Source of the DNA: Chondrosia reniformis
Lineage: Eukaryota; Porifera; Demospongiae; Chondrillida; Chondrillidae
Reading direction: 5' to 3'
Length of the DNA: 64,000 nt
Assembly (NCBI GenBank): GCA_947172415.1
Contig: OX359191.1
Coordinates: forward strand, 1,798,001 to 1,862,000
Shown here: piece by piece, positions 1-26,666 of the stretch
How the letters are laid out: every line of letters begins with the position of its first letter
How positions within the stretch are numbered: the stretch's first letter is position 1
Position numbers and translations under genes: made by a program
Notes under the pieces: generated by a model
Told to the model about the DNA's origin: nothing
What the model saw: the letters and a program-made list of their open reading frames with translations, nothing else
Databases searched by the model: none

Positions 1-2390
1 TACACTGGGGGCTGGATACACTGGAGGGATGGATACACTGGGGGCTGGATACACTGGGGGCTGGATACACTGGGGGCTGTATACACTGGGGGATGGATAC
101 ACTGGGGACTGGATACACTGGGGGATGGATACACTGGAGGGATGGATACACTGGGGGCTGGATACACTGGGAGCTGGATATACTGGGGGCTGGATACATT
201 GGGGGCTGTATACACTGGGGGCTGGATACACTGGGGGCTGGATACACTGGGGGCTGGATACACTGGGGGCTGGATACACTGGGGGCTGTATACACTGGGG
301 GATGGATACACTGGAGGGATGGATACACTGGGGGCTGGATACACTGGGGGCTGTATACACTGGAGGGATGGATACACTGGAGGCTGTATACACTGGGGGA
401 TGGATACACTGGAGGGATGGATACACTGGGGGCTGGATACACTGGGGACTGTATACACTGGGGGCTGGATACACTGGGGGCTGGATACACTGGAGGGCTG
501 GATACACTGGGGGCTGTATACACTGGGGGCTGGATACACTGGAGGGATGGATACACTGGGGGCTGTATACTCTGGGGGATGGATACACTGGAGGGATGGA
601 TACACTGGGGGCTGGATACACTGGGGGCTGGATACACTGGGGGCTGGATACACTGGAGGGATGGATACACTGGAGGGATGGATACACTGGGGGATGGATA
701 CACTGGAGGGATGGATACACTGGGGGATGGATACACTGGGGGATGGATACACTGGGGGATGGATACACTGGAGGGATGGATACACTGGGGGCTGGATACA
801 CTGGGGGCTGGATACACTGGAGGCTGGATACACTGGGGGCTGGATACACTGGGGGCTGTATACACTGGGGGCTGGATACACTGGAGGGATGGATACACTG
901 GGGGATGGATACACTGGAGGCTGGATACACTGGGGGCTGGATACACTGGGGGCTGGATACACTGGGGGCTGGATACACTGGGGGCTGGATACACTGGAGG
1001 CTGTATACACTGGGGGATGGATACACTGGAGGGATGGATACACTGGGGGCTGTATACACTGGGGGCTGGATACACTGGAGGGATGGATACACTGGGGGCT
1101 GGATACACTGGGGGCTGGATACACTGGGGGCTGTATACACTGGGGGCTGGATACACTGGAGGGATGGATACACTGGGGGCTGGATACACTGGAGGGATGG
1201 ATACACTGGGGGCTGGATACACTGGGGGCTGGATACACTGGAGGCTGTATACACTGGGGGATGGATACACTGGAGGGATGGATACACTGGGGGCTGTATA
1301 CACTGGGGGCTGGATACACTGGAGGGATGGATACACTGGGGGCTGGATACACTGGGGGCTGGATACATTGGGGGCTGGATACACTGGGGGCTGTATACAC
1401 TGGGGGATGGATACACTGGAGGCTGTATACACTGGGGGATGGATACACTGGAGGGATGGATACACTGGGGGCTGGATATACCGGGGGCTGGATACATTGG
1501 GGGCTGTATACACTGGGGGCTGGATACACTGGAGGGATGGACACACTGGGGGCTGGATACACTGGGGGCTGGATACACTGGGGGCTGTATACACTGGGGA
1601 CTGGATACACAGGAGGGATGGATACACTGGGGGCTGTATACTCTGGGGGATGGATACACTGGAGGGATGGATACACTGGGGGCTGGATACACTGGAGGGA
1701 TGGATACACTGGAGGGATGGATACACTGGGGGCTGGATACACTGGAGGGATGGATACACTGGGGGATGGATACACTGGGGGATGGATACACTGGGGGCTG
1801 GATACACTGGGGGCTGTATACACTGGGGGCTGGATACACTGGGGGCTGTATACATTGGGGGCTGGATACACTGGGGGCTGGATACACTGGGGGCTGGATA
1901 CACTGGGGGCTGTATACACTGGGGGATGGATACACTGGGGGATGGATACACTGGGGGATGGATACACTGGGGGATGGATAAACTGGGGGCTGGATACACT
2001 GGAGGGATGGATACACTGGGGGCTGGATACACTGGGGGCTGTAAACACAGGGGGATGGATACACTGGGGACTGGATACACTGGGGGCTGTATACACTGGG
2101 GGATGGATACACTGGGGGCTGGATACACTGGGGGCTGTATACACTGGGGGCTGTATACACTGGGGGCTGTATACACTGGGGGATGGATACACTGGGGGAT
2201 GGATACACTGGGGGCTGTATACACTGGGGGCTGTATACACTGGGGGATGGATACACTGGGGGCTGGATACATTGGGGGCTGGATACACTGGGGGCTGTAT
2301 ACACTGGGGGATGGATACACTGGGGGATGGATACACTGGGGGCTGTATACACTGGGGGCTGTATACACTGGGGGCTGGATGGGCTGGTGT
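1..2390. repeat. 16/17-bp G-rich minisatellite array (reaches window edge)
   Basis: About 145-150 head-to-tail copies of a unit with core GGATACACTGGGGGCT. The variants are GTATACACTGGGGGCT, GGATACACTGGGGGAT and a 17-base form containing GGAGGGAT. The plus strand carries a GGGGG or GGAGGG run every unit, so it may form G-quadruplexes. All three plus frames stay open for hundreds of codons because no unit contains a stop. Those long ORFs are artefacts of the repeat, not genes. By comparison with the paralogous locus near 24,540, where only about two degenerate units remain, the array lies in what would be intron 2 of the sacsin-like gene whose exons 1-2 are at 3,392-4,268. Confidence 0.97.
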
Positions 2391-3320: not shown

Positions 3321-3391
3321 AAGGGTCGCTGGCCACCATTATGTTTCACTGTTACACAACAACATACATACAGTTATGCATGTTTGTTAAC

Positions 3392-4268
3392 CTGTTATGT
3401 TGTAAACAGACTGAAATCCAAGTCCAAAGCGTCCAACCTTCAGTACATCCTCCTCTTTCATACTCTTATGCATCTTACCAATGTTCCTCCAGTCCTCATC
3501 AGTAAACACACTGTCATTCCAAGCCAGGAGGGCAGGTCCCTGGAATGGAGCTCCTCCAGGGTCTATGAAGTGCTGACGAGCATCAATACAGAACTTCACT
3601 CTACTTGCTTTGGCATCGTCAGCATTCTGAATAAGTTCCTATACATTAAAAATTACCACTATAAAGACATTCAACACAGTAGCACTGAGTAGGCAGTTAA
3701 AAGGAAACTGCATGTGAGTACAATGCCAAATCAACACTGGCTATATATTATCAAGGAACTAACTTACTGTACACACAATCTGCAACTTGCTATTTTATAG
3801 GGATAATAATATCTACCACTAAAATGTGAAAATGGATGTTTATGACAAAGGAAGGAAATTCTATATTTTAGAGGAAATTATACAATTTAATGCATAGATT
3901 AGCTGGACTTATGTACTGCATGAATATCATGAGAGATTCTATTGTAAAAAGCAAACATTGAAATTCCATGTCACTTTATACTTTAGCAGAAGTACATACT
4001 CCTTAACAATCTCCATATTTACAGCAAATAATGAAATGATAGCAAGTACTGTGGACATCAAAGAATGGTATACCATACTACTAATAAACGATACCACTCA
4101 TACATTACTAGTGAGATGGACTAACTAGCTACTACAATAATTGGATAAAGCTGAAACCTTAAGTATTTGTCCTCCTTCTGTGTAGCGTTGAAGTAAGTTT
4201 TTAAGAAACTCTGTAAGTGGTGGTTGTCTAGTTCCAAAGTCGTCATCTTCAAACTTACGAGCGCACAT
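3392..4268 (-). CDS. Sacsin-like gene, exons 1-2 only (partial paralogue)
   Basis: Exon 1 (4,268-4,158) starts at an ATG and encodes a typical sacsin N-terminus ending GGQILK. Exon 2 (3,638-3,392) continues ELIQNADDA (the N box of the HSP90-like ATPase fold) and ends with the glycine-rich VGRFGLGFQSVYNIT. Both have GT-AG sites, and the frame joins in phase exactly as in the paralogue at 26,666-26,003. An 18-base in-frame deletion removes residues corresponding to LWKPSL, which the right copy keeps. The expected third exon would lie to the left, beyond the minisatellite and outside the window, so I cannot tell whether a full second gene exists or only this fragment. It is divergent from the kinase gene, 666 bases away. 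Confidence 0.75.
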
Positions 4269-4934
4269 CTTCGCTGGTGCGGCTACACAAGTGCAACGTA
4301 CGTAATTTATAAATTGCTGAACTTCGCTGATCCCTGTTAACCGTACACTGAACTACTATATAGGTCAGACTCGAAACGATTAACTGATTCGCTAAAAAAT
4401 GCTTGCACCATAACCTTGAAAGTCTTTGCAAAGGTCAAGCTCGCACCATAGATATACGGAGTCGTATATCTATGCTCGCACGCACTGTCTAGACGTCTAA
4501 TAATGGCATTCACAGTTAGAATTTCCGTTGACCTTTCGTAATTTGTTTAGTTTTCACCGAAAGTACATGTTTATTCAGAATTTATAAGAGAATGGGAAGG
4601 CTACAAGGGATATTACCGGAATGCTAAAAATAATAATTTGTAATGGGAAATACCCTATGACCCATCACTCACATATATAGTCTAACATGGCTTACGTCAG
4701 ACTATTATATTAAGGAATTTTACCAAGCCTACCTTTTAACTGGTTTAAAGCTGTAATTGTCAAGTCGAAAGTGCTGATAAATGTATCCGAGCAAGAAATC
4801 TATAAACAGTTTAAGATTCACTAAGGCACAGCCAAATTCAAAGAACCCCGATTCGTCTAGTAAATTCCAGAAGAATCTAAAGAGAATATTTTTTTATAAA
4901 GTCAATCACTTAGAAATTTGATCTCAGTGTGCTG

Positions 4935-7900
4935 ATGTTGATGTCGCATAGTATTAGTAATCTCTCCGTTGGCAATCCTCTAACATTGTTGTTATCCTTT
5001 ATTGGAAAATATTGCAGGAAACTTAAGCTTCAGAGAAAAGTATTGACAACCAAATCTACGTCGATTTATGATTCCAACCACGACGAGAAGGAATCATCCT
5101 CAGCTGATATAGGTACAATGATCGTAGCTCCATTGCCCAAGCTTGAAATTGGAATTTCAAAAGGTATAGTAAGAGCTGATGAGGAAGATTCAAAGAACAA
5201 ATCTGCTCTCACCAAGTTTTCCTCTTTCAAGAAAGATAAAGTAGAGAATGCCATCTCATCCCATTCTTCAAGCAATGACAATGTTTCAGCTGAGGTATTC
5301 CCAATTCAGGCTCCCCTTCGCTCCACTACACATGAGGGGGAGTGTAGTATAACCAGCAGCCCATGTACAAGTGATAACATTAAAGAGGTATTACCTCCAC
5401 TGGGAGAAGAGCAGAAGCAATCGTGTGATGTTGCTGCCACAACTCCCAGTATTGAGGACAACCAAGGAAAGACCTTTCATTACTCTTTTGCAAATGGCCC
5501 CAACCAAGATGAACCTCAGTTCTTTGTTCCTCTTGAACTAGTACCCCAAACTGGTAGAACAGTTGTGGGCAAAGAACTATCTTCCCAAGATGTATCGCAG
5601 TTATCCAACACGTCTGGTACTAACCAGGACCAAAGCGAGGAGCAGAAAGCAAGCATTCCACTTTCAACTATTTTAGGTAAAAATCATTCTGAGAAGAATC
5701 AATCTAAATCTGGTCAACATGAGCGTGTTATAGCACTGCAATCATCAACTTCTAAGATGTCCAAGCCATCCGTGTCTTTTCAAGACTGTAGTGCACCTGT
5801 GACAAGGAACCCGTCAACTGTAACTACAGAACACGTGTCAACCATGATCCAGCCGGTAATGGAATCTGTGAAAGGAAAAGAAACATTATGTGAGCTGGTA
5901 TCCTCTGGAATGTTTCTACCTCAAAGTGTGAAGAAGAATATTGTGATTGCAAGGTATGGTTAAGTAATGTATATATCCATTTCCATGTACTCATACCTGT
6001 ATGTACAACTTCACTGATCATGCTCAGCTCCTGTCTACATCCTACATATACGTACATTTGTGTCCAATTGACTACTGGTACTGTATAAGCTGCTACTAAA
6101 GTGTTTTCAATCAGTAATAACACGAACATTGAATGGGTTTAAGTGGACAGTGATGTTTAAAACATTTTGTGAGTTGTTCTGTAATTGAAAATGTTGCTGT
6201 TGATATAAGTACACTAATCAGTGCCGGTAGTCAAGTTTCTAATTGTCTACTATTGTGTATATGTAAATTCTTATTGCTAGCTGATTTACTTTGAAATGAG
6301 GATAGTTGTCTACTGGTTGTCTACTGGTGTCTTTACTATACACGGTTCATACATAGGTACTTGCATAAAAGTCAGAAATCTGGAAAGGAACGGCAAAGCT
6401 GCAGTGAGAAAGGTAAAGAAAATCACTTGGAAAGTGTACCTCCGCCTCCACCTCCACAGCTGAAGTTGTCACCCAAATTTAGTGGCCAAGTAACAAAGGC
6501 TGGAACCATACTCTATTCAGTGAGTTGATGTAGCAAAGTGATGCAGAATTAAGTATAGCCATAAAGTATGCAAGTATGGTACGCACCATAATAAAGATAA
6601 CATTAACCAAAACAGTCCTTATATATTAAGATAGCGTAACATTTTTAGACGAATTCTTGACTTTTGAAAGAGATGCAGTTTTGGTACTCTTTTGTTGAAG
6701 CTTTTGATCTTTGGAATCTTCCTTAAATGTCAGACAAAGACACTACCAAGCTGCACCCCTATAGACACTCAAAAGGCCTAAATACATATATATGAACCAT
6801 ATCAAAAGGATAATAGAATAAGGATTTCTTCGAACTGCCTCACACTTATCTTTTGGATGGTTCATCTTTCGATAATTTGAGTGTTACTGAAGAAGACCCC
6901 CAGGGTTGAAACGTCTGACAGAAAGAGAATGAAAAACTGTGTCTTTAGACACTCAAATTATCGAAAGATGAACCATCCAAAAGACATCAAAAGGATATTT
7001 TGATACAGTTAGAAGAAAAGAAATCCTTCTTCCATAATGGTAGAACAGTGTTCTTTTACTCACTGAATTCAGTTGTATGCCTTTGGTAACCTGTCTGTTT
7101 CTCAAAGACAGTGCATTTAGCCTTTACAGTGCTCTATGTATATATTTAATACAGCAAAGCTTTAAGCTATGATCTGCACCTCAATGAGTCAGACTGTTCA
7201 AATTGCTTAGCTGCATTCTACATATACTAAGAAATTACAGGAGACACTCTATTGTATGCTGTAATGCAGTCCATCACTTTAATCAGGTAATGACTCACAA
7301 TTAAGGTGCCATATATACCTTATATTGGACCCAAAAGGTTGATAAATTCTTTTAGCTAGTGCTTTTATTAACAACTAAAGGTTATATGGAAAATCACAAA
7401 GACTGCGTTTTTATGCTTTATGCTGTAGTACAATTTTTTAATGAAAAATTGTCGTTTTATTGACTATACCTGTGTCAGATTTGTATGAAACCTTTTTGGT
7501 CCATTGCAGTATGTTGTATGCTGTGTATGCATTTTATAGTAAAACTGTTTTTGAAGTTCATACTACCTGTGTCACTGTAACTTAGGACTGCGAATATTTT
7601 ACAGAAGGAAGCTTGCTTCCTGTACCATCTCAAGAGGCAATGGACAGGAACATTGGACAAGGAGGAAATGGAACAATAACCATTATCTACTACAAGGAGC
7701 AAGAGTTTGCTGTTAAAAAGGTATATTTGGCATTATATACACATTTTTATATGTACGTACATACATATAGATTTCTTCGAAGATGCCATATACGTACATA
7801 CGTATGTGTTAATTTCACTCTCCAACATGTGTATATAGACTCACTATCGTCAAATGGAAGTAGAGATTATGTCTAAAGTAAGGCATCGCAATATTCTCTC

Positions 7901-9808
7901 AATGATGGCTGTGATGATGGGTGAAGAAGATCCCAAGAGATCAAAGCGCTTCTATTGTTATCATTTTCTTCCTAAAATGACCTTTGACCTCCAGTCCTGC
8001 CTCACTAAGGTTGGTCATGGTGGCGTCTCTGCATTGCTTCTCAAATACAAAGATGAACCAGTGATGCTGCAGCTTGTGGTAGACAATGTGAAGCACATTC
8101 TGAGTGGCCTCTTGTCTGGACTAGCTCATCTCCATGACAACAACATTGTGCACAACGATGTCAAACGTAAGTGTATAGGCATGCAAGCTTGCTGAATTAT
8201 ACCACTAAGATGTAATATATATGAGCAAATCAATTAGGACCACTAATAGGATCTTTAAACTTCCAAGATTCCTCCGAGTCAGCAACACTTAAAATTTTCC
8301 CATCATATATCCATTACATTAACAAACTTTTATAGGAATAGGTAATTTAAACACGACTAAATCTCCCTAATTAAGAGTTTAAATATTTCTTTATATGTAC
8401 ATATACAGTATGTTTCTACTGCATATACTGTATAAAAAAGAATGTACTTTTTCTAACTTTTCTAGCCAGTAATATTCTGCTGAACATGCACTGCTTGTGT
8501 GACAGCCCTTTTCTGTGTACTCACAACCAGAATTTTGATATAAAAATTGGAGACTTTGATTCAGCAATTGACTTGCCAAGATTACTGACCAATCCAAACC
8601 TGGCAGGCCAGCTGCAGAGGAACAACCCAATAGGAACACCAGGATATCGTGCCTTGGAGGTAACATTTTATTTTGTATTAATAATAATATTATCATTCTA
8701 GTGTATATGTATATATCTGATAGGGGGTAATTTTAGTTGCGTTCATTATGAAAGATAAGTTTATTGGAGCAAATTACTGCTGATGAAGACCTACGGGTCG
8801 AAACGTTCAATCTAGCTCAATTTTGTTGCTGATAGCTCCAATAAACTTATCTTTCATGTATATATCTATCTTAATTCCCTATATCTAGTTTATACTAATT
8901 GCTACGAGGACCAAGTCTGACTTATCAGATTATGACAAACTCACTGCTTCAGACATTTGGTCTGTTGGAGCTACTGTTTTGAAGATATTCCTCAGTCACA
9001 GTGGTCCCCACACACAAAGAGAGGTATGCAAGTACCAAATGTATACATTACATTACATGAAAATCTATTACACCATTTTCCTATATGCCTATATGCATAC
9101 TCTTTAAAAAAGCCTATAGAGAACTAAGCCTGGAGAGAGCTATGTATGGATGAAGATACAGTTCCTGGAGACTTTTATTTTCTTTCTTCTTCTTCTCCAC
9201 TGGGCCAGGCACTGTTTCTGGGAATTCCACCCTCCATCAGTGACCCAGAAATCTTTATCCTTCCTTGCAATTGATCTTGATCTTTTCTGAATCTTTGGCA
9301 TGTATACATATACTTTTATATACTGTACAAGCATTCTATAGGTAAAATCCTCCTTTTTAGAACCTTTTTAATAGTTTCATAGTATACATATGTACATATA
9401 CATGGTACATATGTTTAATATAATTTTAATCATTTGATTTCATTCCATGCTATTAGATGGCTGCTATACATCTCTGTGAGCTTGATTACTTTCCTTGGAA
9501 TAAGCAGAAAATGCTAGTTAAGAAGATCAAGAAGCTAACACTGCTGCAAAGTGTGTATCCCAACTGGGCCCAACTGTGGCAGTTTGTTGGTGATTGCTTT
9601 CAGGTAGGAATCACATATAATTTTGTATATGCAGATTTTGTAAGATAATAAGGATCTCTTCTAACTGCAAAACTAATTCAGGTTCATGTTTAGTCATTTG
9701 AGCATTAAGCATTATAATATTTTTTTATTTTTATTTTACTTGTAGGCCCAGCCAAGACTCAGACCTAACTGCCAGCAGCTGTTAAAACATGACTTTTTTG
9801 ACTCCTAA
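4935..9808 (+). CDS. Atypical serine/threonine protein kinase with long Ser-rich N-terminus
   Basis: Eight exons can be followed: 4,935-5,953; 6,357-6,519 (or 6,523); 7,605-7,720; 7,839-8,166; 8,466-8,659; 8,889-9,023; 9,457-9,603; 9,746-9,808. Together they give about 720 residues. The first 390 residues are Ser/Gln-rich, probably disordered, with a PPPPP run near the end. The kinase domain follows: glycine loop GQGGNGTI, FAVKK with the VAIK-type lysine, catalytic loop HNDVKPSN, then GDFD and GTPGYRALE. HND replaces HRD, DFD replaces DFG and ALE replaces APE. Lys, both catalytic-type Asp residues and Asn are present, so activity is possible. All kinase-exon joins agree in phase. The exon 2 to 3 join needs either a non-consensus donor (GTTGAT) or an exon I missed. 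The start is uncertain: ATGs at 4,935 and 4,941 are close, and an upstream exon cannot be excluded. The family within the kinome was not recognised. Confidence 0.8.
6850..6983 (+). mobile_element. Foldback element with hammerhead-like core (intronic)
   Basis: Perfect 35-base inverted arms (6,850-6,884 and 6,949-6,983) enclose CTGAAGA (6,887-6,893), a stem-forming GACCC...GGGTT segment and GAAAC (6,908-6,912). This is the order of the hammerhead ribozyme core, with the arms in the position of stem I. It lies in the intron between kinase-gene exons 2 and 3. A stem III and cleavage triplet are not clearly identifiable. Confidence 0.5.
8748..8857 (+). ncRNA. Hammerhead-ribozyme-like motif in a foldback repeat
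   Basis: Perfect 23-base inverted arms (8,748-8,770 and 8,835-8,857) flank CTGATGA (8,780-8,786), a four-base-pair stem GACC/GGTC closed by a TACG tetraloop (8,788-8,799), and GAAAC (8,800-8,804). CUGAUGA, stem II, then GAAA is the conserved hammerhead core, known from Penelope-like retroelements and related repeats. I could not place a convincing stem III, so catalytic ability is unproven. It is located in an intron of the kinase gene. Confidence 0.4.
9098..9262 (+). repeat. Dispersed repeat family 1, copy B
   Basis: Starts AAAAAAGCCTATAGAGAACT and runs through CCTGGAGAGAGC, a TTCTTTCTTCTTCTTCTCC tract and GGGAATTCCACCCTCCATCA, the complement of the signature in copy A. It is intronic in the kinase gene. 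Confidence 0.7.
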
Positions 9809-10466: not shown

Positions 10467-11074
10467 CTAAATGTCATATGTGATACAGTAAGCGGGATAG
10501 GACTGTTCATTGCGGTGCACAACATAGATGATGCTGAGTGTTCCAAGCACTCCTAAGATACTGTCATACTGCTCTACTATTCCACCTCTCTCTCCTTTGT
10601 GTAAACTGAGATTACTCCTGTCCTCTGTGCAGTCTTTAGCATCACCTAATAGGACCTTAGCTACTAACATTTTATAGTATCCATCAGTTGTCCTGTGTGC
10701 ATAATCATGTGATATCCTGGCATCTCTGGCAAAATAGGCCCCAGGACCATACAACCCATGTCTACTCTTCAAAACATCAAAGCTTTTCTGGCTTTTAAAT
10801 ATATCTTCTGGATTATGTGAACGGGTACCATGAAAAGCCATCACCTCATTACAGTACCCAAGTCGCTGTACAAGTAGGTTTCTCTTAGAAGCATAATCTT
10901 TCCAAATGTCAACATTCTGAATCCTGTCAATACTAAAAATTCTCACTCCTATATTCCCCATACTGCTGAAGAAGAGCTCAGAAATGCTTAAATATTCATC
11001 ACATGTGATTCTCAATGGTACAAGAGCAAATCTTTGTCTTTCCATACACTGAAGGGACCAACCAGGAGGTAAAC
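10467..11074 (-). other. Terminal exon: PARP-type ADP-ribosyltransferase domain
   Basis: The acceptor TTTTGTAG precedes 11,074. The donor at 11,319-11,318 (GTAAGA) ends the HEPN exon, and the join reads ...DPA-S-LPPGWSLQ in frame. The exon encodes ISELFFSS...IDRIQNVDIWKDY, then FHGTRS (first triad His), GPGAYFARDA (triad Tyr) and SYPAYCITY at the end. In PARP1-like enzymes the third triad residue is Glu; by my alignment it is Cys here. That points to a mono-ADP-ribosyltransferase or an inactive domain, closest in style to the PARP10/14 group. Confidence 0.85.
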
Positions 11075-14000
11075 CTACAAAAGTGCACAAACATTTAGAA
11101 GATCAAGCAATCACAGGTTAATACAATTCAGACACATTTTTGTCAAAAGATTTAGGGAGTATTATGTATATGCACTATTGTTATACCTATCATGGTATAA
11201 GTGTATACTATTAATTAAAGGAACACAATACATATTAACTTAATTAAAGTAGACTTAGAAGCCAGGATTTTGTTAAAAACATAAAGTATGTTTAAGGTAT
11301 ATGTACACCAAGTTCTTACTTGCAGGATCAATAGGATCATCTCTTCTATTGGTCAACCTGACTTGCACTTCCTCCATCATTTGTCCGACATTGGGTAATT
11401 GTTCTTTAATTGTGTGATACATCTCTTGAACTGCTGCCACAACCTCTTCGGTTTCAGAAAATCTTTTGGCATAAGAATAGGCTGGTGCCTGTTTTGGTAC
11501 ATTGTAGCCAGGATAGCGACACTGCATAAAGTGCCTTGATACTTGTAGAACTTGAGGTCTCAAATCAATACCTGATGCCCAACCTTTATGCCTTTGCAGC
11601 TCCTGACAAAGGTCCATGACATTTGTGTGTCCTGACAACTTTGTGTCAAGGCCAAACAGAGCAAGAAATAATGCCTTGAGACATTTTTCAACACTTTCAT
11701 GAGACAAAAAACAAACTTGAGCTGGAAACACTTCCAGAACAAGTTGGGAATCACGATGTGCTGCTCTAATTTCTTTGGACTGTTGTAGCAAATTTTGTGC
11801 AGCTTTGAAATCATTAAGTGCTTGCATCAGCCACATTCTTGCTTCTTCAAGGTTAGGCTGTGGAGGTGGCTCAGCTTCAACATGAGAACGCCAGAGTGGG
11901 TCCCTGAAATTTTGTTGTCCTAACCAGAGGCCACTAAATTTCACACTTATTGGGGAGGAGCTACCTCGGGAGCTCTGACCTAGATATGCATTGTCACTGG
12001 ACACTCCTCCATAACCGGTGGAGCTCACAAAAGTCGGTTCTGCTTGATGTTTGGTTAGCTGTTGCTTTACAGACAGCAATAGCTGTAAGTCGATACCAAA
12101 AGATGATACTACTCCAATTAAAACTTTGACTGCTTTATCAAATACATCCATACGAGCCATCTTGGTACACATATAGTGAATCTGGTAGAGTAAACGAACA
12201 GCAGTAAATTGCATTTGCTCATGGGTGAAGACTTGTCTTACTCCAGTGTAAAGCTCCATTAATTCTGCTCTTAAGATGTCCATATGAGCTACAGACAACG
12301 CTAGGAAAGATATTGGACCTGGTAGGGCTGTATCAAGACTATCTGGTAGGTTGGTAGCAATTTTCCAAGTTTTTAGAATATTGTACTCGTAAGCTGGTGG
12401 CATGTATTTACTGAGTAAAAGTGGACAGTACTGGACTACCTCAACTTGATCATTCTCTCTCTTTTTACTAGGTTTAATCTTAAGATTGCACTTCATAGAC
12501 AATGTCTCTCCTTCTAATGTAACAATTTTAGCATTGATCGGAGAACTACTGTTTTCCTTTTTGAACTTGATAATCTCTCCAACCTTAAAATTAAAGACAA
12601 TAATATGATCCAAGTATGGTCTTAATGTAGCATTATCTCCTAAATGTGATTTTGAAAAATTCTTATCACTACCATGAATATATTCTGGTATCTGGTGGTT
12701 ACTCAATAAAGTGCCAATCATGTTGGGATGTTGACAGGAGAGCATTTCCATAAAAATGTGACTATCATGAACAACATGACCAAACTGCTGATTGAGTCCA
12801 ACAAAGAGTCTGTAGAGGAGCTCATTTCGGTCTGTTGTTGTACTACTGTCCCTCTCATGTGGTGCAATGTAGATGGTACAGGATAATCCATCTTCTGCTG
12901 GTGCTATCAGACAAGGGGAACTGGAATATAGTGAGTTGGAAATTTCTTTATTATTTTCATCCAAGAGTACTGTAGTTATGAGTCGTACACAGACTAATTT
13001 TGCACTGTTCAACTTGCTCTTTAAGTGCTCAACCAGTTCATCTGAAGGTGGGCTTTTGGTCTCATACTTTATCAAGCGTAGTAGACCATCTAAAAAATAG
13101 CCAGATTTCAAAACTATCTTAAGGTGATTTAGATAGGGACAGCACTGACTGCTTCCCTCAACAGCTGCAACTCTTTCTATATTGCACAGATTGACTTCAT
13201 TGAGCATCTTAGGATGGGATGTCTCTCGGATCACAGAAGACAGTAAACGTACACCTAGCCACTCTGGTAAAGACGGATTTGCAAAGCTGTCCTTTGGTGG
13301 TGTTTTGATGAATTTGTAACAGTTACTCTTAGATGTTCTTTGAAGCCTTTCTTTATACCATGGTGCATCATTAAGCAGAAGTGTTGTAGCCAACTCCAAT
13401 GTTTCCTTTTCAGAAAGGAGAGGGAGATTTCCTTCATAAAGATCCTGCTGGATACTACCATCTGGTTCCTCAAACAATCTAGCCAGCTCTATAAAGAGAT
13501 AATAGGCTCCTCTGGCATCTTCCTGATCATTAGGGCTTAGTCTTTCTCTGCCATGTCTGGTATTGTGCCAAAGTGTCTTTAGGAATATACAGCAGTGATG
13601 AATGGTAAGGTCATCAGAAGATCCAATTATTTTCAAAAAGGTTATGAGTGATTTGCAATAGTCTGGGACAACTTCAACACATGAGAACATTGTATCAGCA
13701 TGTTTCATGACAGTGTGACTTCCTTGTAATAATTGGAAGCTACAATGTCTATCTAAAATATACAAACAGTTGCTTGTCCCAAGCAGTTCCTTTAGTTCGT
13801 GCTCATCTTTCTCTTGGCAGGAATTGATGCAAGTATAGTGAGCAAGAAATAAATCTCTTAACTTGTGCAAAATTTTCAAATTATTTTTTCTGTTTGGAAG
13901 TTCCTTGCATTCAGACAAAATCTTAGAAAGTATTCTGAGATTTTCAGCTGCTAATATGGGAGTCACTCTGCATAAACCTAAGGCTTCAAAGATAGAATTG

Positions 14001-17000
14001 AAATTCTTAAATTTAGGAGAGAAATAGAATTCATCTGGCAACACTGGCTTGCTAAGGCAAGAAAGGTTCCAATCGTGGTCCTCAAGTTGAATCACTGAAC
14101 CTTTCACAGTATTCCAGCCAATGATTGGCATCTTAAAACCAGGTAAGATGTGTTCTAAGACATTATTCGGACTCCTCTTATGTAAACATGGTACAATAGC
14201 AAAGCAACTAGCTCTACGAAGAAAATCTGGACTTAAGTCTGATTGATTGATTTGTTCTGCTAAATTAGCCAAAAGTAGTAGTGATTTATTTTTGCTGATG
14301 CTAAAATCCTCATTGCCAGATTCAATTGTACTGATCAGAGATTTAGCAAATGACAACCACAACTGACTTGTAACTGTCCTATTTAAGCCCAAAAATTCTA
14401 AAAAGTCGAGCCATTGTGAAGAATCCCAAGACTCTGGAGGAAAATCACTATCTTTCAAAAATGCTTTGAAAATTTCACAATTAGGATCATACAAATCTTT
14501 AGGTGCTGCGATGCTTTGATCTCTTAAACGAATAAACTTTAAGGAAGAGAGGGTGGTCACTATAACATTCCATGAAGATTTGGTCCTTTTACTAGGACCT
14601 GCTTGGTAATAAAGCTCCCTTAAGCGTTCAATATGGGGAAATATAGTTTTTGGTGTAAAACATTCTCTGTGAAAGTGGCAAATCAATACCCTATACAACT
14701 GTAACACTGCATGGGGATGGTTGTCTACAATATCTACACCTGCTTTGGTCAAAAAAGTTTCACAATACATTGGTACAAGAATAAAACCTAATCCTTTCTT
14801 CATGTCTGTAAGGTCAGCAAGGCCATCGAAAGGTATACTGTTCTTGTACAGTCCATATACAGTGCCAAAGTAATCAATTCTTGAAATCCTTTTTTCAAGC
14901 AAATAGAACAAGGGTAGTTCCTTTAACCAAATTTGACTACCTGATTCTTGTAATTCTTCAGAGCCATTTAAGAAATTAATCAAGTCATAAACCTCATTTT
15001 CATCAATATTCTCTAATTGAGGTAAATTCTCTTTATAGAATAAAAGAAGATGCAATATCTCATTTGGATTGTCAGGATTAGCAAAAAAATTTTGAAAGTT
15101 GATGTAATATACATTCTTGCCGAAGACTTTTTCTAAACACAACACAGGAAACTTGAATTTATTAATTAACTGAATTCGTTCAGATTTAGCAAAAAGTATC
15201 TGTTTTCTTCTCGAAATTTGATATAAATGATCGCTAGTGGTAGGAATTGCAGCAAACGGAGAGAAACTTTGAAAGGCATCTTCGCTTTGACAGTCTGATA
15301 GATACCACCAAAATAAAAGTAATAGTTTCTTGTCAACTTCATCTAAAGATAGCACTTTATGATTAGAAGGCTTTGGTAAAGCAAGGTTATCAGCAACAAA
15401 CTTTGGATTATCGGCTAACATTTTTATTACACCCAGATTTTGAAGGATAGAATAAATATCGACATCATTTGCTATACACTTATGGATAAAGTACCCTTGG
15501 CAAGTTGGTAGAAGTTCAGAATGCCTATAGTCATAGACCATACACATCAATCTCAACTGATCGTTGTTTGTCAACATAAGTGGAACACCTTGCAAAACAC
15601 TCTTCCAGTTAGGAATGGGCTGTGGTCCTAATTGAATGTCTTTCACTACAAACTTAAGAAGAGGCATTATGTTTGCCTTTATCACATCTTGGTAATCATC
15701 CATTGATTGAGCAATAGAACGCAGATGATCTCTCAGAAAAGCTGGACTTATTCTTCCAGAAAAAGTGCCTGATTTCTTCTGTGAGGCTAAGGAAGCTTCT
15801 AAAGATCGCAATAATTCAGGAGGAGCATCAGTAAGGAACAAACCAAGCTTGACTAAAACCTTTTGCTTTGGCTCATAAGACAGAGGGCTATAAAATAGTC
15901 CTTTATCAGGCCCATTGAAGGAAAGCCAACTACCGGGATTATTCAATGAAGTAAGTATACTAGTATTATTGTCAAAAAGGTAACAAAAAAGAATTTCAGA
16001 TAATCTGAAAGATTCAAGAACGCCTTTTATGTCTGGTTGAGGAAAGAGGCCATAGAACCATTCTGTAAAAGCCTTACCCTGAACAAAAAACTTTTTGCAG
16101 TGTATTAAAAGTTCAACATAAGCTCTCAGAACTGTTTGCTGTACAAGTTCTCTATTCCAGTCTTTGAGTTGATGTGTAGTACTGTGTTGGAGATCTCGCC
16201 TTGAGTCACTCAACCAGAAATGGCCATTTACATGTATTGGCAGTTGGGAAGTATGTGGTAAAGGAAGGTAACAGTAAACCATACTCTTTGAGGAACTACT
16301 GTCACTCTTAAAGTCTTTCTTTTTATCCTTCTGTGATATACGTTCAGTAAAGTCTGGAACATAAGCGGCCACTCCACCAAGTGGTAGAAAACTACATTGA
16401 AAAGCTGTTGCCAGAAGCTCTGGAATGATATCATTGGCTCCTAGCCTCTTGCTAATTACCCAATGTTGTGTTTTATGATCTAAATGCCTATCAATAGTCT
16501 CAGTAGTTAGATCATACACAGTACTGCTGCTAACCATTGTAAGATCACTCTTAAAAGAGGATGCAAATGAGTGCATTTCACTTCTAAAATTTTCACATTC
16601 CCTTGTTCCTCTTTTTTCCAAAGTGGCTGTAAATGAGCCCACAAGACTATATTTATTTTTGTCAGATATTTCAAAAAATGCAATTTTCCTAACAGAATTG
16701 AGAAAAAGTAGGCAATTTTCCCCAATTTCATTGCAAAATGAAAGAAATAATGCCCTCATCTTCCCTGCTGTCATTTCTTCGGCTGTTTTAATGCATCTTA
16801 ATTCATTCTTACTTCTAGCAAAAGGGAGACGGAAGAAAGCAAATCCATTTGGCCACTTTTTTGAAAGTTGTTGAAAGAATTTAGGACACATTGATGAAAG
16901 TCTTTTTAGTGTTTCTGTGGAAAAAGGAGCCATTTGATCCTCTAAGAGTCTACTGATATCACCTGATTCACCTTGCAATCTCCATCGCTGTCCAGGATTA

Positions 17001-20000
17001 TCTCTATTACTTCCAGGAACAAACTCCAGTGTTGGATCAAAAGCACAAAAGTGATCAGGTGTTCCTCCTTCTGAATGCGATACAAACACTGGACAGTCAG
17101 TAACATGGTAGGCAACATTGAAGCCAATTCCAAATCTGCCGATTGTCTCAGGAGAATTGTCCTTAATACCTTTCCCTAGTTTTGTAATTCCAACAATATC
17201 TTCTTCAGTGAATTTCTTGTTGTTGAACACTAGCAGAGAAGGCATCTGTTGTAAGTTCTTCCAATTACTATGACTAGGGTCAAAGAGCATTTTATCTTTA
17301 AACTTTCGTTGGTCTAAGATAAACGCAATTTCTGAAGCTCCAGCATCATCAGCATTTTGAATAAATTCTTTGAATATGGAACCATCCGCATGATAATTTC
17401 TCAATATATTGCTCAAGCGATCACATAAATTTTCATGCTGCCCTTAGCCAACACCAGAAAATACAGAATTATCACTATATTTTGATAAGAGGGCTTGCAA
17501 TGGATCTCGGATACCTAAACCCTGAGCAGTGTCAAGGGAAATCATTGGGTGCAAACGGTACTGTCTTTTGGAACTTTTCATCACTTCAAGAGACTTAAAA
17601 TACTCTTGCTTTGTAAACAAAGCTTGAATTTGTTGATCAGAGTACATTAGTCTATCCTTACTTCTCATTATACAATCAACATCAGGTAAGAACAGATTGC
17701 TAAGCTTCTTAGATTTGTGAAGTCTCCTCGAGCAGTAAATAGTAAAATCAAGTATGTCCTCAGGTAGAGGGGCTTCTTTATAATCAGCATCTATGGCCTG
17801 CAGTGTAAGGAGCACATTTTCATGCGAAATCCTATCATTTACACCCAGCTCTTTCAGCAATAATGATGTAGATGAGGTTAACTTATCTCTGTCAAGAGTA
17901 ACAAGATAGGGTGGACATTTATATGCTTCGTCAAAATATACATGATTAATGTCATAAAAATCAGATTCCTCCCAAATAAAAGCCACATCCTTCAGTATGA
18001 ATGATATCTTGGCAAACACCTCTTCGTTTTCCTTCAGTCTCGAGTTAGATGCATCACTTATTCCTAGTGCCATAAGAGATAGGTAGGAATAAATTTCTTG
18101 TGTGCTATCATCAAGAAACTTTAGCACTTTCTTTTCATTTTGCAATCCCTTTGCTCTATTCTTCCACCACAGTGCAACTGTTCTAAGATGTTCAAGGATG
18201 TACTCCAAAGTGGGGCTTCTCATGAATGTCAACAATTTGAATAGATCATTTGGAACTGCTTTGTCCAAAATAAAATGACTTGTAAATACCAGTTTGTCAT
18301 ATACTGAAGGAAACAGATCAACAGATTTCATAAAAACAGCATCTGAATACCTCCAACAAGTGATCATTGGGTGAGGACTTTTCATGATTGGCAAAAAAGA
18401 AATGTTTGACAGTGATACAGCTAAGTCTTTGTCACTTTCTGACAGGTTTCCAGTGGGTTTTGATGAAGAGTATGTGGATCTGCTATCTTTAAAATGGTAT
18501 TCTAGAAGATATTTGACTAGAAAATTACTTCTTGATTTGCTAGTTTCTACATCAAGCCGGGAGATTGAATGAGCTCGTTCAAGAACATCCTCATCTCTAA
18601 GTCTCTTATGAGCCATCCCAAGTGAATGAAGGGCAGCCACCACTTGTCTACTCTTCATGTAGCAAGCAGCAGGAAATCGCCCTTCTTGTGTAGTAAACAA
18701 CTTTGCTACATCAGTCACAGATGAATCTACCAAATAATCTACCTTAACAAGACAGCCCTTGGGCTCAGTTGGAATAAAGGCAGTAGAAGTAAGCATGGCT
18801 TGAAACCAGGTGTACTTGTCACTTAAGATCTGTAACTGTTGCAACATAAATAATGCCACTGTATCTCTCATGGTGGGATTAATGCTGACAATTTTGGAGA
18901 AAAAGCAGGTACAAAATTCTTTAAATGTAAACATTTTAAAGAAATAGTTGAGTCTTGAAGGTACATTAACAATGGGTACATTCTGGCTGACTAACAGGTT
19001 ACAAATCAGCTCCCTTTGAGATAATTTAAAAGGATGTACTAAAAAGTCATGACTTAATATTACCACTTCAGAAGGTGCCATCCAGCGCCCTCCAAAACTC
19101 TTGGTCCAAACAATTTTATTAGTTGTTTCATGCACTTCCTTTTCAAAGGCCTTGGCAAGGATGGGTCTAATTGCATCCACCTCCTCACTCTTCTGCTCCC
19201 TAGTAGGATATAGCTGATAGTAACTTTGTAAGAATTCATCATCTCTGGCAGAATTCATGTCAGGTGCATTCTTGGCAAGATATTGTAGCAACTCAAGTAC
19301 AGCTAATACAAGAGAATCGCTGATTAATACTTCATTCCAAACACTCCTCTTTAGTAAACGACGGTCTTTAGTGACATCAAAAAATCCATTTACATGAAAT
19401 TCAAGTGAGCAGCCAAATGGTAAGGGAAGAAAGCAAGACAATCCTCCTTTTGTGCACTGTGCAATAAGACTACTCTCTTTCCTGCCCACTTTCACAGCAA
19501 CTTCTGTGAAGGGAATGAGACCATCCTCAGTACCACAATTCAGTACGTGCTCAAGACTCTTTTTTCTACCTAAAGCCGATGAAACAATCCACAAAGTAGA
19601 TTTTTCCTTACCACCTGGTAAAGAAACAGTTGTTATTTTCTCAATCTGTGAGGTAGGTGGATGTGAGAAATCATTACCAGTTGGTAGGCAAAAGGATTTT
19701 TTGAAAGGATTTGTGGTCTCTCCTGATCTCTCTAGCTTAAATAGACAACTAGGAGCATTTTTGTCACTTTTTTCTAGCAATTCTATTGAATTTACATTCT
19801 GTAGAAATAAAAGAAGTGTGGATGCTGACTCCTTCAAAGACCTTTTAAGAGACTCAATGTTCCCTTTGGTGAAGGTTTCATTACAAATTTCACTGATCAT
19901 TCCAGGCCTGCGGAATGGAAATCTAAATAAGGTACCATCAAATCCATCAGGTGGAGGGTTAACAATGCTACACCCAAATATACCTTCATAGGGAGCTATC

Positions 20001-23000
20001 TGGTCTGAGTAGTACTCCTTCAGGCCTGTGTTTTCCTTCACAAAGTCAATCAGCACACCTGGTTTAGTTGGCTGCACTCTTTCTCCAAGATATTTCAGAT
20101 GTGGATCAAATATCTGTAGCCAGTTCTTGGAAACAAAACTTGGAACATCTGTTAGATGATAGGTTGCACAAAACCCAACTCCAAAACGACCAATTTTTGT
20201 ATGATCAGTGAGTTTGGTTTGTCCTGCTATTTTGCAGATATTCCTCAAATCACTTTCACTGAATGTTTTGTCGTTATACGCATACAAAGCTGGGCCTTGC
20301 CAAGCTGCCATTTCTTTAGTTACCAAGTGTGACTGTTCAAAATGCTTCCAAGATATAAGGAACTTTACTACAGTAGCTCCAGCATCATCAGCATTTTGTA
20401 TCAGCTCCTTGAAAACATCAATATTGTCACCGTAATCTTCCACAAGACATTTAATTCTATGAGTGATGGATTCATAGGGCCCAGTTGCTTGAAAGTCTAT
20501 GGCAATTGCTTTTGATGGAGCAGCTTTCAAGCTAAGAGGCTGTACTTTGAAAAACTGTGCTACTTCAGCAGTAATCCTTTTATGAACAAAGCAAAAAGAA
20601 TCATTCCTTCCTTCTGAAGGTGAATGCTGAAGATAGTGATTGTCATAAGTCAGATCTGCTGGATTTCTCAAGTCATGACGGATTGTAGGTAATAGAAAAG
20701 TAGAAATGGAGGCCACTGAGTTCACTTGCTTCAAATGTTCAGCAACAGAGACAACAGTGTCCAACTGCTCAGGGCTAAGTGTGCCATGCCGGCCTAGTGA
20801 GGAGTGTATCTCATGAACTACTTCCACTCCATCTTCAACAGTCAAACACTTGGATACTCCACTCTCCAGCCACATAGCTTTGTGGTCCCTCAGACACGAA
20901 GCATCTTGTAGACTGTATCTGTAAGGAGTTAAAGAGCAGTTTCCTAATGGCTTCAAAGCACATTTGGCCTTTGTGACAAACTTGTACTCTGAGTCAATCC
21001 AAATACAAGCCAGCTCAGCATTTAAGAAGGAACAAGAAGACTGACCTGCAAAATATTCATATATTGATTTAATCATCATTAAGACTGCTTTGTCTTTCAA
21101 TACATTACTTGGCAGAGAGGTTATATTAGCAAAGTGCCTCCCTACAGTGTTAGGAGTAACTACAGCAAACTCCTGTGATGTCACTCCAAGTGGAAGTGGA
21201 TAATCATGGGACAGAAATAGCAACACAGATCCTACCAAATGTGAGTGAGAGAGATCCAAACAGAGTTCTGCTGGAGAGCATAACCTGTTCACCTTACTCC
21301 CTGCCCACAGGAGCTGTTTAGGATATCTAGGAGGTGGGGATTGGTTACAAAATAGAAATGGGATGGACTTCAAGCTCTGAAGCAAGTGTGCACAGTTTCT
21401 GTTCTTGAAGATTTCTGTTAAAATAAGCTGAGATCTTTTAACTGCTTCTTCCTTTGACACTTTATATAGAGCTACTTGAACTGATTTAGCTCTCTCTTCT
21501 ATAAAGTCTAAAAAGGTTGTGTCGCTAGCGATCACACTCTCCCATGTCTTAAGATTATAGAGTCTCAGTTTAGAAAGTACCTTATCATACTCTTTTGGAG
21601 GAAAAGGAGAGTCAAAGGGGAGAAAGAAATCTTTTAGCTTACTATCCTTGGGGTCATAAAGCTTACAAATATACTGTAAGGGACCATTTGCTGTGGGAAT
21701 TATAGCAGTCAGTCTTATAAACTGCTCCAATTCGCTATTTTGGTACTCTGGGTTAGAGCACTCAATCAACCACAGCAATAGCGCATTTCTCATTGTAAAG
21801 TGGTGTTTAGTGGCAAATGTGTATAATTTCTGAGCAAACTGCCCCAGTGAGGAAGGTACCACTCCAACTGCCCTCTGGTAAAGGTTTATATCTTCATGAC
21901 AGACTTTCAATATGTTGTCAGGGAAAGGAATATTTGTTGGAAATTGAATAGTTGGTAAAGGCAAAATGTAAACATGAGGTGAGTCTGGTGACATCAGATT
22001 TGTAAAACGACTTCCTCCCATTCCCACCCCATGCTCAAATATAGACAGTGATCTGATACAATTCAATTCGTTGAGTGAACTTAGTGATTGACTAGCTGAA
22101 GATAGATATGAACGAAGTTGCCTTTTTTGCTCATCATTAAGTAACTGAGATACTCTTTGAGCAACCTGAGGTAAATTAGGCAAGACATGGAGAAGACCTT
22201 CGGGACTCAGCTTAGGCAAATATTGACTTAGTTTTGGTCCTAATCTGAAATAACAGCGTGAATGTTTAACTAAAACGCAACCTAACAATTGTGCCATGAT
22301 ATTTAGGTCTTGGTTTGATCCACTGAAAAACAAATTTCCTGTATCAAGACGATAAAGAGAATATGTTCCTTCATTAGTGACATTTTCTGGTCCTTCTGAC
22401 ACCACAAGGGGAAGAGTGGCAACACTATCAATGACTTCATTATTAGTAATGTAGGTCCAAACATTTAGCAGCCATTCAGCTGAAGGATGATTGTTTCTGT
22501 TGGGGGTCCACTGAACCGGATTAACATGAGTATGCGTCCAAGTCTCAATGGATTCTGGGAGAAGGGAATTACATACAATCTGAGCATTTGCCACGATCAA
22601 TTTGTTAATCTTAGACCTTGCAAGCTGGTTAAATAATTTCCCTAGATCAGTGAAAAGAACATTTGAAAGAATAAGCTTATCAAGATTATGCAAGACTTTA
22701 GAAAGACTTTCATTGACTAGGTAAACCTTTTGCTGTCCAAATGGAACAACTTGTCCACTCTTCAACAAAAGAAGTGGAATGTTGGTAAGCTCATCAGTTC
22801 TATCAGAAGTAACAAAACAAAGGCAATCCTTTAACAGAGAGAGGTCAGACTTCACTTTAGACTTTAACATTTCATTACTTCTAAACCACTTCCTTACAAC
22901 TTGTGGTGTCACTTCTGCGATGGGTAACTGGCAATCCTGCTGAATGTGTCTCGGAAAACAGACTACAGGAAGGCCAAGTTGAATCAAAAGATCTAAAATG

Positions 23001-26000
23001 GAATTTGGGATGGTTCCATTCAGAGGAGGGCAGAAGGCTTCACAGGGTTTTACCCAGTTTCCTCCACCAGCTGGAGTCCAAAGAACAGGAAGGTTGGACA
23101 GGAGGGGAAGCACCTTTTTCACAAGGTACTCCCAAGCCTTTTCCCTTGACGCACTCATTAGAGGAAGCAAAGCAAATGGACGACTGCTCTTACACAGCTG
23201 TTGATAAGAAAAAAGGGGGAACTGGAAGTTCATCAGGGAACAGCTGGTTGTGATAAGAACAGCATATGATGGAGAAATGAGATGCCGAACAAGACACTTG
23301 TTCCATTTGGCTTCATCACTTTGATCATCAAGATCTGGCCATCGAACTCTTCTTCGGTTGTCTGAAAGACTAAAGTAGCCATGAATGTGTACTGGAAGAC
23401 CAGTATCATTATTAGAAGACATTGGAAGAAAGCAGAAAGCAAATCCCTTGTTAACCAACGTAGCAGGTGAGGCCTCAATAGAGAATTTCTTTCTATTTTT
23501 ATGAAATATTTTTAAAACAATATTTTCAATATGGCTACAGTCTGGCTTTTCACTGATAAGCCCTTTAAATACCTGTCGAGGTGGAGATATGGGACCAGGT
23601 AAGGGGGCAGCTAGGCCAACCCATGGAATGACTTTGAGCTTCTTTGCAAGATCTACCATTTCTGCATTGCTTGACCCCACTGTATTGCACACAAGATATG
23701 AGTACTGAGCAGCACCTCTACTGAGAGGTCCCTCTACACTGATTGCACACTCACTGATGCTACAGACGGGAGTCTGCAGTCCCTTAGCTGTTTGTGAAGC
23801 CATGGATTTCTCTATACACCACTGCCTGGTGGTGGACACATCGCCACCTTCTATAGCAATTCTAAGTAGCAGTTCGGGTTGGAAACTCTTTGAAGAGTGC
23901 ACCTGTCAGTATAACTCAACAGTGGTCACATGATTGAGGAACAAAAGAAGACGAGGCGCCTCCTCAGCAAGAGATTCATAGAGGACTCTGTGAGCCTCAT
24001 CAGCACTGTACATTCGATCAGAGATTTTGGAAATGAATTTATCATTGCGAAATGGGAAGCGAAAGAGTGTTCCATCGTAGTGGTTTGCATGGTTGCTGAA
24101 CCCAAACACTCCCTCAAATGGAGCTGATTGAGCAGCATATATGTTGAACTCCTCCAATGGGAATCTTTTACCAGTCTTACCTTCATTCTTAATGACTGTC
24201 TCATGAGGATCCATTATACCAACACAGTCACCACTGACTATAGTGGGTAGATCTATATACACATGAAAATGTAATTCAATTTAAGGCACTCGTGAAAAAT
24301 GATATGTATTTCTATACCAGTTCATTGGCAAATCAAAGGAATCCAGTGTATACTATGGCAGTTATCCCCTAGCTGGATGATATCACCATGTATGTAATTA
24401 GCCCAATGATATCCAATTACGTAAGTGATTCAGTTACGGATATCGGATGTACACTTTCACAACTACTGACCATTCAAGCATGTTTTGTATGATGCTCAGA
24501 AGTCAATCATCCCTAAATAAAATGGCCATACTGAGGGTTTGATACACTGGGGGGTGGATATGCTGGGTTTTGTAGTATGTATATCATTATGAAAAGGTTT
24601 ACTCTTAAAATTTAGGTTGTGAATCCCTCGGTTGGACAGCAAGTACACGAATAATGAAGATCATTAGGAGGTCACTACCATACAGAACGTGTATACAGTA
24701 TCATACAGAAAGTGCATATACACATATATAAAGACTGAATTATATCAACAATTATGAACTGTACACATAGTTTCACATTCTTTGTATGTACGTACGTAGC
24801 TTCATTTTCAGTGATTTTTATGAGTTTATGAGTGAATATGACTTTCATATTTTGTTACAATATAGTTAGTATATAAATATGTGTCACTGACCCTTCAGTG
24901 CTTGAGAAACAAATTTATTAGCCTTGCTGAATAGGAAGACTATACCATACAATGCTGTAAGTAGCTCTATGTTTTTGTTGTCGATGATGTACATGAAGAA
25001 GATTAAAGACTTATCTTCTTCTATCTTATCGATATGGTCACTGATGAAGGGTGTAATTCCCAGAAAACGCTGTCTGGCCTGTGGATAATTTCATCCAAAG
25101 CTCTCACTAGGTTTAGTTATACTCTGAGTATGTAGATGCAGCATGTTGAAAAATTCATACACACCTGCCCTTAATAATACACATTAAACTGTTAGCTGAC
25201 TATATAAATAGACCTTTACCATGTATGTTATAAATAATCGATGTGATAATCAAACCACAAGTAAATATAATCAGTCAAACATCATAAAGAGGGAAACACG
25301 AAAGAAGCAATTGCAGGGAATCGAACCCGTGATAGTTGGTTATGACCACCAGTTGCTTTGTCCTGATAAAGAAAATCACCACTAATTAGTGAATGAAGAC
25401 TAAATACTAGCTTGTAGTGTGGTAATTGTAGCTCAGTGGCAAGCTGATAATCAAGACCCAGCCTATTTCCACTGGGAGGGGCCATCTTAACCAAAGGGTC
25501 GTTGGCCACCTAGTCTGGCTTGCTATCCCCTACTTTCTGCCTGCCAATGATAATTGTGCGGGGCGAGAAAGTAGGGTCTAGCAGAAAATGTATATGCCAC
25601 ACCTCGTGGATAAGCGCCCCGCAGTGGTACCTTAAGCGTACATACACATCACGTGGAGGTTCTTTGAATGTTGCGGCGGTCAGACGATGGTTTCAGCTGA
25701 AGCAGCTTGTGATTTGTGCCTAAAGGAAGCCATCAAAAGCACGGAAAGAGCAAGAATATACTCGAATACATGGACATCCATACTACTGGCCTCCTCATGT
25801 AGGCGCCCATTTACTGGTGTGAAATCGGTAGCTGTAAGCTGATTGGTCGAGGCAAGGTGTGGCATTTACATTTTCTGCTAGACCCTACTTTCTCGCCCCC
25901 GCACAATTATTGTCAGCGGGCAGGAAATAGGGGATAGCAAGCAAGACTACTGGCCACCATTATGTGTCACTGTTACACAACATCATATGCATGTTTGTTA

Positions 26001-26666
26001 ACCTGTTATGTTGTGAACAGACTGAAATCCAAGTCCAAAGCGTCCAACCTTCAGTACATCCTCCTCTTTCATACTCTGATGCATCTTACCAATGTTCCTC
26101 CAGTCCTCATCAGTAAACACACTGTCATTCCAGACCAGGAGGGCAGGTCCCTGGAATGGAGCTAAAGATGGCTTCCACAACCCTCCTGGGTCTATAGAGT
26201 GCTGACGATCATCAATACAGAACTTCACTCTACTTGCTTTGGCATCATCAGCATTCTGAATAAGTTCCTATACACATGGATAAACCTGATAACATAGAAA
26301 TGTCAATATTTCAAAGGATCTTTACTATACCAAAATGAATAAGAAGTACATAAACATAACTATCTTATGACAAATAACTCAAACAGACTATGTAGTTTAT
26401 GTTTATTCTAACAGCAGTAATTAAGGTTCATCTTTCAATATTTGAGATCTAAAAATGTAGAACAAGAAAATCAAGCCAAAAACGGTTTTTAAATGCTCGA
26501 AAACATCGAAAGATGAACTCTATAAAAGAATCTGCTTATACAGAACAGAACAGACCTTAAGTATTTGTCCTCCTTCTGTGTATCGTTGAAGTAAGTTCTT
26601 AAGAAACTCTGTGAGTGGTGGTTGTCTAGTTCCAAAATCGTCATCTTGGACCTTTCGAGCGCACAT
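10467..26666 (-). CDS. Giant sacsin-like protein fused to HEPN and PARP catalytic domains (two internal stops)
   Basis: Four exons: 26,666-26,556; 26,267-26,003; 24,252-11,320; 11,074-10,467. All junctions are GT-AG and the phases sum exactly to 4,639 codons including the terminal stop. Three sacsin-type repeats are visible, each opening with an HSP90-like ATPase N box: ELIQNADDAKAS (near residue 40), ELIQNADDAGAT (near 1,408) and EFIQNADDAGAS (near 2,423), followed by glycine motifs such as RFGLGF, RFGVGF and RFGIGF. Around residues 4,260-4,410 a HEPN domain begins EEARMWLMQALNDFKAAQ and contains CFLSHESVEKCLKALF. The last 200 residues are a PARP catalytic domain. No ubiquitin-like N-terminus or DnaJ domain is seen. 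Classical sacsin is about 4,580 residues and acts as a co-chaperone. In-frame TGA (23,906-23,908) and TAA (17,444-17,446) interrupt an otherwise open 12.9 kb exon. The locus could be a recent pseudogene, recoded, or affected by assembly error. Confidence 0.88.
17444..17446 (-). other. In-frame TAA stop in the giant exon
   Basis: The frame reads SGVG-stop-GQHENLCDRLSNIL and continues unchanged for another 2,040 codons. In the two other repeats of the protein, and in sacsins generally, this boundary is FGQxExL-like. The stop sits where the conserved Phe should be, immediately before the third ATPase module. Confidence 0.9.
23906..23908 (-). other. In-frame TGA stop in the giant exon
   Basis: The frame reads HVTTVELY-stop-QVHSSKSF and continues for about 2,150 codons. 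The second repeat of the same protein has NVNSIELLEK at the equivalent place, so the stop replaces one sense codon within a homologous block rather than marking a natural C-terminus. Confidence 0.9.
25232..25510 (-). mobile_element. tRNA-derived SINE, right copy, with inverted core
   Basis: The B-box half (GGGTTCGATTCCCTGCAATTGC, minus strand) is in the normal orientation. The segment holding the A box and CACTAATTAGTGAATGAAG is reversed relative to the left copy and to the third copy at 31,365. Here TAGCTCAGTGGC reads on the plus strand near 25,430. This breaks the internal promoter. Confidence 0.65.
25511..25950. mobile_element. MITE with long terminal inverted repeats, hAT-like
   Basis: It begins TAGTCTGGCTTGCTATCCCC and ends in the inverse (reverse complement TAGTCTTGCTTGCTATCCCC). 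The TIRs extend about 90 bases with mismatches. It is flanked by TGGCCACC on both sides (8 bases; 9 if the preceding T/C difference is a later mutation). The left paralogue has a single uninterrupted GCTGGCCACCATTATG at about 3,330-3,345, an exact empty site. The 8-base duplication suggests hAT. There is no transposase ORF. Confidence 0.8.
26429..26518. repeat. Small inverted repeat related to the 6,850 foldback
   Basis: GTTCATCTTTCAATATTTGAG at the left is mirrored by CTCGAAAACATCGAAAGATGAAC at the right. The arms match the 6,850-6,983 element, but the hammerhead-like middle is absent. It sits in intron 1 of the sacsin-PARP gene. Confidence 0.6.

Follow-up and report, generated by a model that had tools for sequence, protein, structure and literature searches.

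Does a giant sponge gene encode sacsin-type ATPase modules and a PARP catalytic domain as one protein, and does it stand alone in its genome? The question is raised by a minus-strand gene at positions 26666-10467 of a 64,000-nucleotide stretch of Chondrosia reniformis DNA (C3:1798001-1862000 of assembly odChoReni1.1, a genome of 117,379,552 bases in 15 contigs), which we refer to as the window. The gene has four exons, which encode three SACS modules, a HEPN domain and then a PARP exon. Ten clusters of SACS modules were found in the genome, all of them followed downstream by a related PARP exon, and we consider it probable that the window gene belongs to a family of giant sponge genes whose products combine SACS modules, HEPN and PARP in a single protein. 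We call the window copy C3a and its paralogues C1a, C1b, C3b, C12, C12' and C13-1 to C13-5. The parts of the window gene, in window coordinates, are as follows.

26556..26666, minus strand: exon 1, the start methionine and the first part of SACS module 1 (37 codons from the ATG), with a counterpart exon in C1a, C1b and C3b
26003..26267, minus strand: exon 2, SACS module 1 from the N-box ELIQNADDA to GRFGLGF (Pfam SACS, 113 bits)
11320..24252, minus strand: exon 3, 12.9 kb, with the end of module 1, modules 2 and 3 and HEPN, and two in-frame nonsense codons
23906..23908, minus strand: in-frame TGA in exon 3, at the end of module 1
19760..20473 (C3:1817760-1818473), minus strand: SACS module 2 (Pfam)
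17444..17446, minus strand: in-frame TAA in exon 3, in the linker between modules 2 and 3
16652..17437 (C3:1814652-1815437), minus strand: SACS module 3 (Pfam)
11402..11836, minus strand: HEPN domain (Pfam PF05168, 34.5 bits)
11075..11319, minus strand: putative HEPN-PARP intron of 245 nucleotides (nt), GTAAGA...TTTTGTAG, phase 1
10467..11074, minus strand: exon 4, PARP catalytic domain of predicted mono-ADP-ribosyltransferase type, ending in the stop codon TAG

A Pfam scan of exons 2-4 gave one SACS match in exon 2 and two in exon 3 (242 and 195 bits), HEPN above its cut-off of 22 bits and PARP at 64.9 bits (cut-off of 26.7). The initial annotation of this DNA had described three sacsin modules, HEPN and a PARP exon on the minus strand and had called for such a search with domain models; all of these domains are found, in that order, and the observation of a SACS-HEPN-PARP gene is confirmed. 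Its picture of the architecture stands, although it overlooked both the two nonsense codons of exon 3 and the family of ten clusters. An N-box of the ELIQNADDA type is present in each of the three SACS modules, and module 2 matches solved sacsin domains (E value of 3.8e-41). Of the N-terminal ubiquitin-like domain of vertebrate sacsin nothing was seen, and the 37 codons of exon 1 already lie within SACS; an unseen upstream exon is possible.

The genome search returned at least 46 SACS matches, which group by position into ten clusters (two on C1, two on C3, one on C12 and five on C13) with 1 to 7 modules each by our own count. In 10/10 clusters the last SACS match is followed, 5.4-6.5 kb further downstream and without a change of strand, by a related PARP exon. 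Chance adjacency of PARP to SACS was rejected on this count; by a hand estimate, with 43 PARP matches in 117 Mb, an interval of 8 kb to one side of a point would be expected to hold about 0.0015 matches on the same strand, although the clusters are not statistically independent because they are paralogues. The search with the PARP exon gave 16 genome matches: ten belong to the clusters, and the other six are C12', three partial matches and two separate PARP genes (C3:1385k and C6:5340k) that by eye appear to contain RRM domains. All five HEPN matches listed at E values of up to 0.001 are inside SACS clusters. C12' (L031, C12:4668001-4678000) has HEPN-like and PARP exons with no SACS nearby, and may be a truncated duplicate.

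Whether HEPN and PARP are joined depends on the splice between them. Exon 3 would end at A11320, before GTAAGA, and exon 4 would start at 11074, after TTTTGTAG, giving the joined reading ...DPA-S-LPPGW. Worked by hand, the splice phases (0, 1 and 1) match at all three junctions of the window gene, which bears out the exact phasing claimed for it earlier. A phase-1 HEPN-PARP joint is readable in 8/8 loci examined, with introns of 245 (C3a), 217 (C1a), 386 (C1b), 276 (C3b), 229 (C12), 1388 (C12'), 107 (C13-2) and 920 nt (C13-5), and the donor position aligns in C3a, C1a and C1b. In contig coordinates the joint falls at 1,809,320/1,809,074 on C3 for C3a, at 6325918/6325700 on C1 for C1a and at 4701416/4701186 on C12 for C12. 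Compared with C1a, C1b and C3b, the window copy shows 63-75% identity over the final 150 nt of its HEPN exon and 63-73% over the opening 150 nt of its PARP exon, whereas its intron is 31-42% identical to theirs, near the shuffled level (maxima of 31-41%). The recent pair C1a-C1b still has 41% intron identity (shuffled maximum of 30%). From these features we infer a HEPN-PARP splice.

Homologues of the two parts were also found in other genomes. A search with the HEPN end returned 27 proteins, 26 of which share a CRYP motif, and 22 of the 27 (counted by eye) have DP near the C-terminal end, where the Chondrosia donor lies. A PARP search returned 425 proteins, the best 120 of which were compared with the sacsin homologues. 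One homologue (P0006) has three SACS stretches and HEPN, and the size of its contig, 2146581, equals that of the contigs of three PARP exons, which group near the C13 and C12 PARPs among the rows listed in a tree without support values. The size 10369955, probably the other haplotype of C1, likewise appears for both a sacsin homologue and a PARP. Equal size is an indirect sign of the same contig and is silent on distance.

Several observations weigh against a family of single giant proteins, the first of them at the junction. Donors were chosen by eye among phase-compatible GT sites, so that agreement in phase counts for more in C3a, C1a and C1b than it does in the diverged loci; C13-1 has phase-1 donors, none of which could be settled on, and the junctions of C13-3 and C13-4 fell outside the reading. 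A search with a joined HEPN-PARP profile, in which the 7994 candidates sharing most words were scored, returned three proteins, each of which has HEPN but lacks PARP; two extend past HEPN to end near the donor position and one stops inside HEPN. In C1b and C12, the 600 nt that follow the PARP stop contain neither AATAAA nor ATTAAA. The HEPN scores of C13-2, C13-5 and C12' fall short of the Pfam cut-off and HEPN is unlisted for C12, although the stretches nonetheless align, and in C1a a unit of about 35 residues is repeated in tandem inside HEPN (L025:3919-4518). Among the 120 of 425 PARP proteins compared, 2 of the 15 sacsin-homologue contigs were matched in size and 13 were without a match.

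The PARP exon might instead be a separate gene or transcript that merely adjoins sacsin-HEPN genes. This would account for the lack of a spliced product among the three proteins from the joined-profile search and for the missing signals after the PARP stops of C1b and C12; in addition, if the donor is read through, translation ends at the stop that closes the 11273-17443 frame, and the C1b intron holds one ATTAAA. However, the introns of C3a, C1a, C3b and C12 contain neither AATAAA nor ATTAAA, and introns of 107-386 nt in 6/8 loci leave little room for a promoter and a first exon. The invariant W of the PARP exon precedes the first methionine in the window, C1a, C1b and C3b copies. With phase-compatible donors and acceptors in every locus read and PARP next to SACS in every cluster, we regard a separate transcript as very improbable.

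The remaining contrary evidence concerns the integrity of the copies. C1a and C12 keep an uninterrupted giant exon (4420 and 4338 codons), but in the window copy it is broken by TGA (23908-23906) and by TAA (17446-17444); a single TGA is present in C3b and a +4 frameshift in C1b. In C13-2, of which only the 3' part was read, one TGA follows a 6666-codon frame, and a TAA lies inside one SACS match of C13-4. Three differing lesions fall in one short linker before SACS module 3 (window 17446-17444, C3:1788291-1788293 in C3b and near C1:6359330 in C1b). Sequencing error is an unlikely source of the stop codons because the assembly consensus quality value (QV) is 69.8, as given in the part of PMC12181767 available. 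At 17444, the only site inspected for a short intron that would excise the stop, no convincing pair was seen by eye.

Such lesions suggest a reading that is compatible with the single-protein family, namely that such a family exists but that its member in the window has become a pseudogene from which no full-length protein is made at these coordinates. The PARP exon of the window has a probable allele (P0031) that is 98% identical, but an intact allele of the giant exon (about 2376 amino acids or more) is missing from the sacsin-HEPN homologues listed, which points to a broken copy on the alternate haplotype as well. Against this, the ratio of nonsynonymous to synonymous substitution rates (dN/dS) of the window PARP exon is low, 0.25-0.28 in comparisons with C1a, C1b and C3b, and judged from these ratios the exon is under purifying selection; any loss would therefore be recent. 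The PARP exons of C1a and C1b (L018 and L019) depart from this pattern, with a dN/dS of 1.96 that rests on few changes (about 8 nonsynonymous and 2 synonymous). We consider it likely that the window copy makes no full-length product, and it is probably a recent null.

What the protein of an intact copy would do is suggested by its domains. The structure model of the HEPN domain (predicted local distance difference test score, pLDDT, of 80) has human sacsin HEPN (3o10) as its top Foldseek row, with a probability of 1.00 but an E value of 0.07; no row reached an E value of up to 0.001, and the HEPN sequence had no match in the PDB at E values of up to 1. The Rx4-6H RNase motif is absent from the window copy (RYPGYN) and from all 26 homologues with the motif region, six of which have the H one place short (RYPEH); the region was not found in the remaining one of the 27. 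An RNase-type HEPN response is less likely because this motif is missing. Human sacsin HEPN dimerises and binds nucleotides. The PARP exon has a PARP fold, and its structure model resembles PARP15. In alignments with PARP12 and the paralogues, read by eye, H81 and Y113 of the catalytic triad are kept and I stands in third place. PARPs that keep H and Y and have a residue other than Glu in the third position are mono-ADP-ribosyltransferases, and the window domain is predicted to have this activity.

As in the initial annotation, DnaJ is not visible: the scan of exons 2-4 lists none, and of 30 genomic DnaJ matches listed (E values of up to 0.001) none lies within a SACS cluster. Missing DnaJ points to a sacsin-like variant rather than to vertebrate-type sacsin. 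Our best reading, inferred from the domains, is that of a sponge-expanded sacsin variant in which an ATPase scaffold presents a mono-ADP-ribosyltransferase. The SACS modules, with the GHKL N-box kept, would act as an ATP-gated scaffold; HEPN, which lacks the RNase motif, may serve as a dimerisation or nucleotide-binding spacer; and, upon activation, the C-terminal PARP would mono-ADP-ribosylate nearby proteins or RNA.

A second copy in tandem, C3b, has its exons 2 and 1 on the minus strand at window positions 3390-3638 and about 4128-4352 and continues to the left of the window. Over the first 1500 or so codons of the giant exon, C3a and C3b are 92-98% identical in 9/10 of the segments compared, and identity then drops abruptly to 45-64%, an apparent trace of gene conversion between tandem copies. 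A 16-bp minisatellite, open in several frames, occupies window positions 1-2380 (147 copies within the window) and runs on to the left to about C3:1795456; it is located in an intron of C3b. On the plus strand, 7839-8195 holds a fragment of a protein kinase (PF00069), whose score of 31.1 bits narrowly misses the cut-off of 31.7.

Tandem duplication, 1-7 modules per cluster, apparent gene conversion and frequent nulls look like those of a stress or immune recognition family, and the genes may have a role in defence or stress. More specifically, and only tentatively, these may be giant, modular, sponge-expanded receptors like NLRs, in which ATPase modules, numbering 1-7 in each gene and reassorted through gene conversion, would sense a trigger and fire the mono-ADP-ribosyltransferase through HEPN dimerisation. 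Homology of SACS and HEPN to sacsin would also suit a housekeeping, chaperone-type scaffold like that of vertebrates, where PARP would adjust protein quality control instead of serving in defence. With no DnaJ match across the ten clusters, and with a changing number of modules, copies arrayed in tandem, nulls and apparent gene conversion, all untypical of such a gene, this seems unlikely.

As every SACS cluster found in the Chondrosia genome is followed by a PARP exon, the sacsin scaffold appears to be tied here to ADP-ribosylation rather than to DnaJ-mediated recruitment of HSP70. The unusual combination of SACS, HEPN and an ADP-ribosylating domain may link the sensing of stress or infection to ADP-ribose signalling. 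If transcripts confirm the family, it would offer a testable case of how, early in animal history, a chaperone-like scaffold may have turned into an effector of immunity or of the stress response, and would bear on the role of the HEPN end of sacsin, a question that dates from the discovery of the human ataxia gene.

Vertebrate sacsin (SACS) shares three SACS/GHKL modules and a C-terminal HEPN with the window family, which differs in having no DnaJ match and an added C-terminal PARP exon. Sponge sacsin-like HEPN proteins are known in several copies from Amphimedon; they carry DEATH domains and were proposed to act in host-pathogen conflict or apoptosis, and the passages available from that paper, which also gives the link of human sacsin to ataxia, mention no PARP alongside them (PMC3710099). 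Cnidarian proteins combine TRADD-N with HEPN, macro and PARP domains, and sacsin is another TRADD-N fusion partner, but none of the invertebrate TRADD-N proteins described in the passages available joins SACS modules to PARP (PMC8195603). Among the matches listed (titles, starts of abstracts and passages) from targeted searches of the open-licence PubMed Central (PMC) literature, there was no sacsin-PARP fusion, in keeping with the earlier remark that no standard family is known to have this architecture. The PARP10/12/14/15-type mono-ADP-ribosyltransferases share with the window PARP the fold, the conserved H and Y and a hydrophobic third residue, and differ in that the partner of the window PARP is SACS-HEPN.
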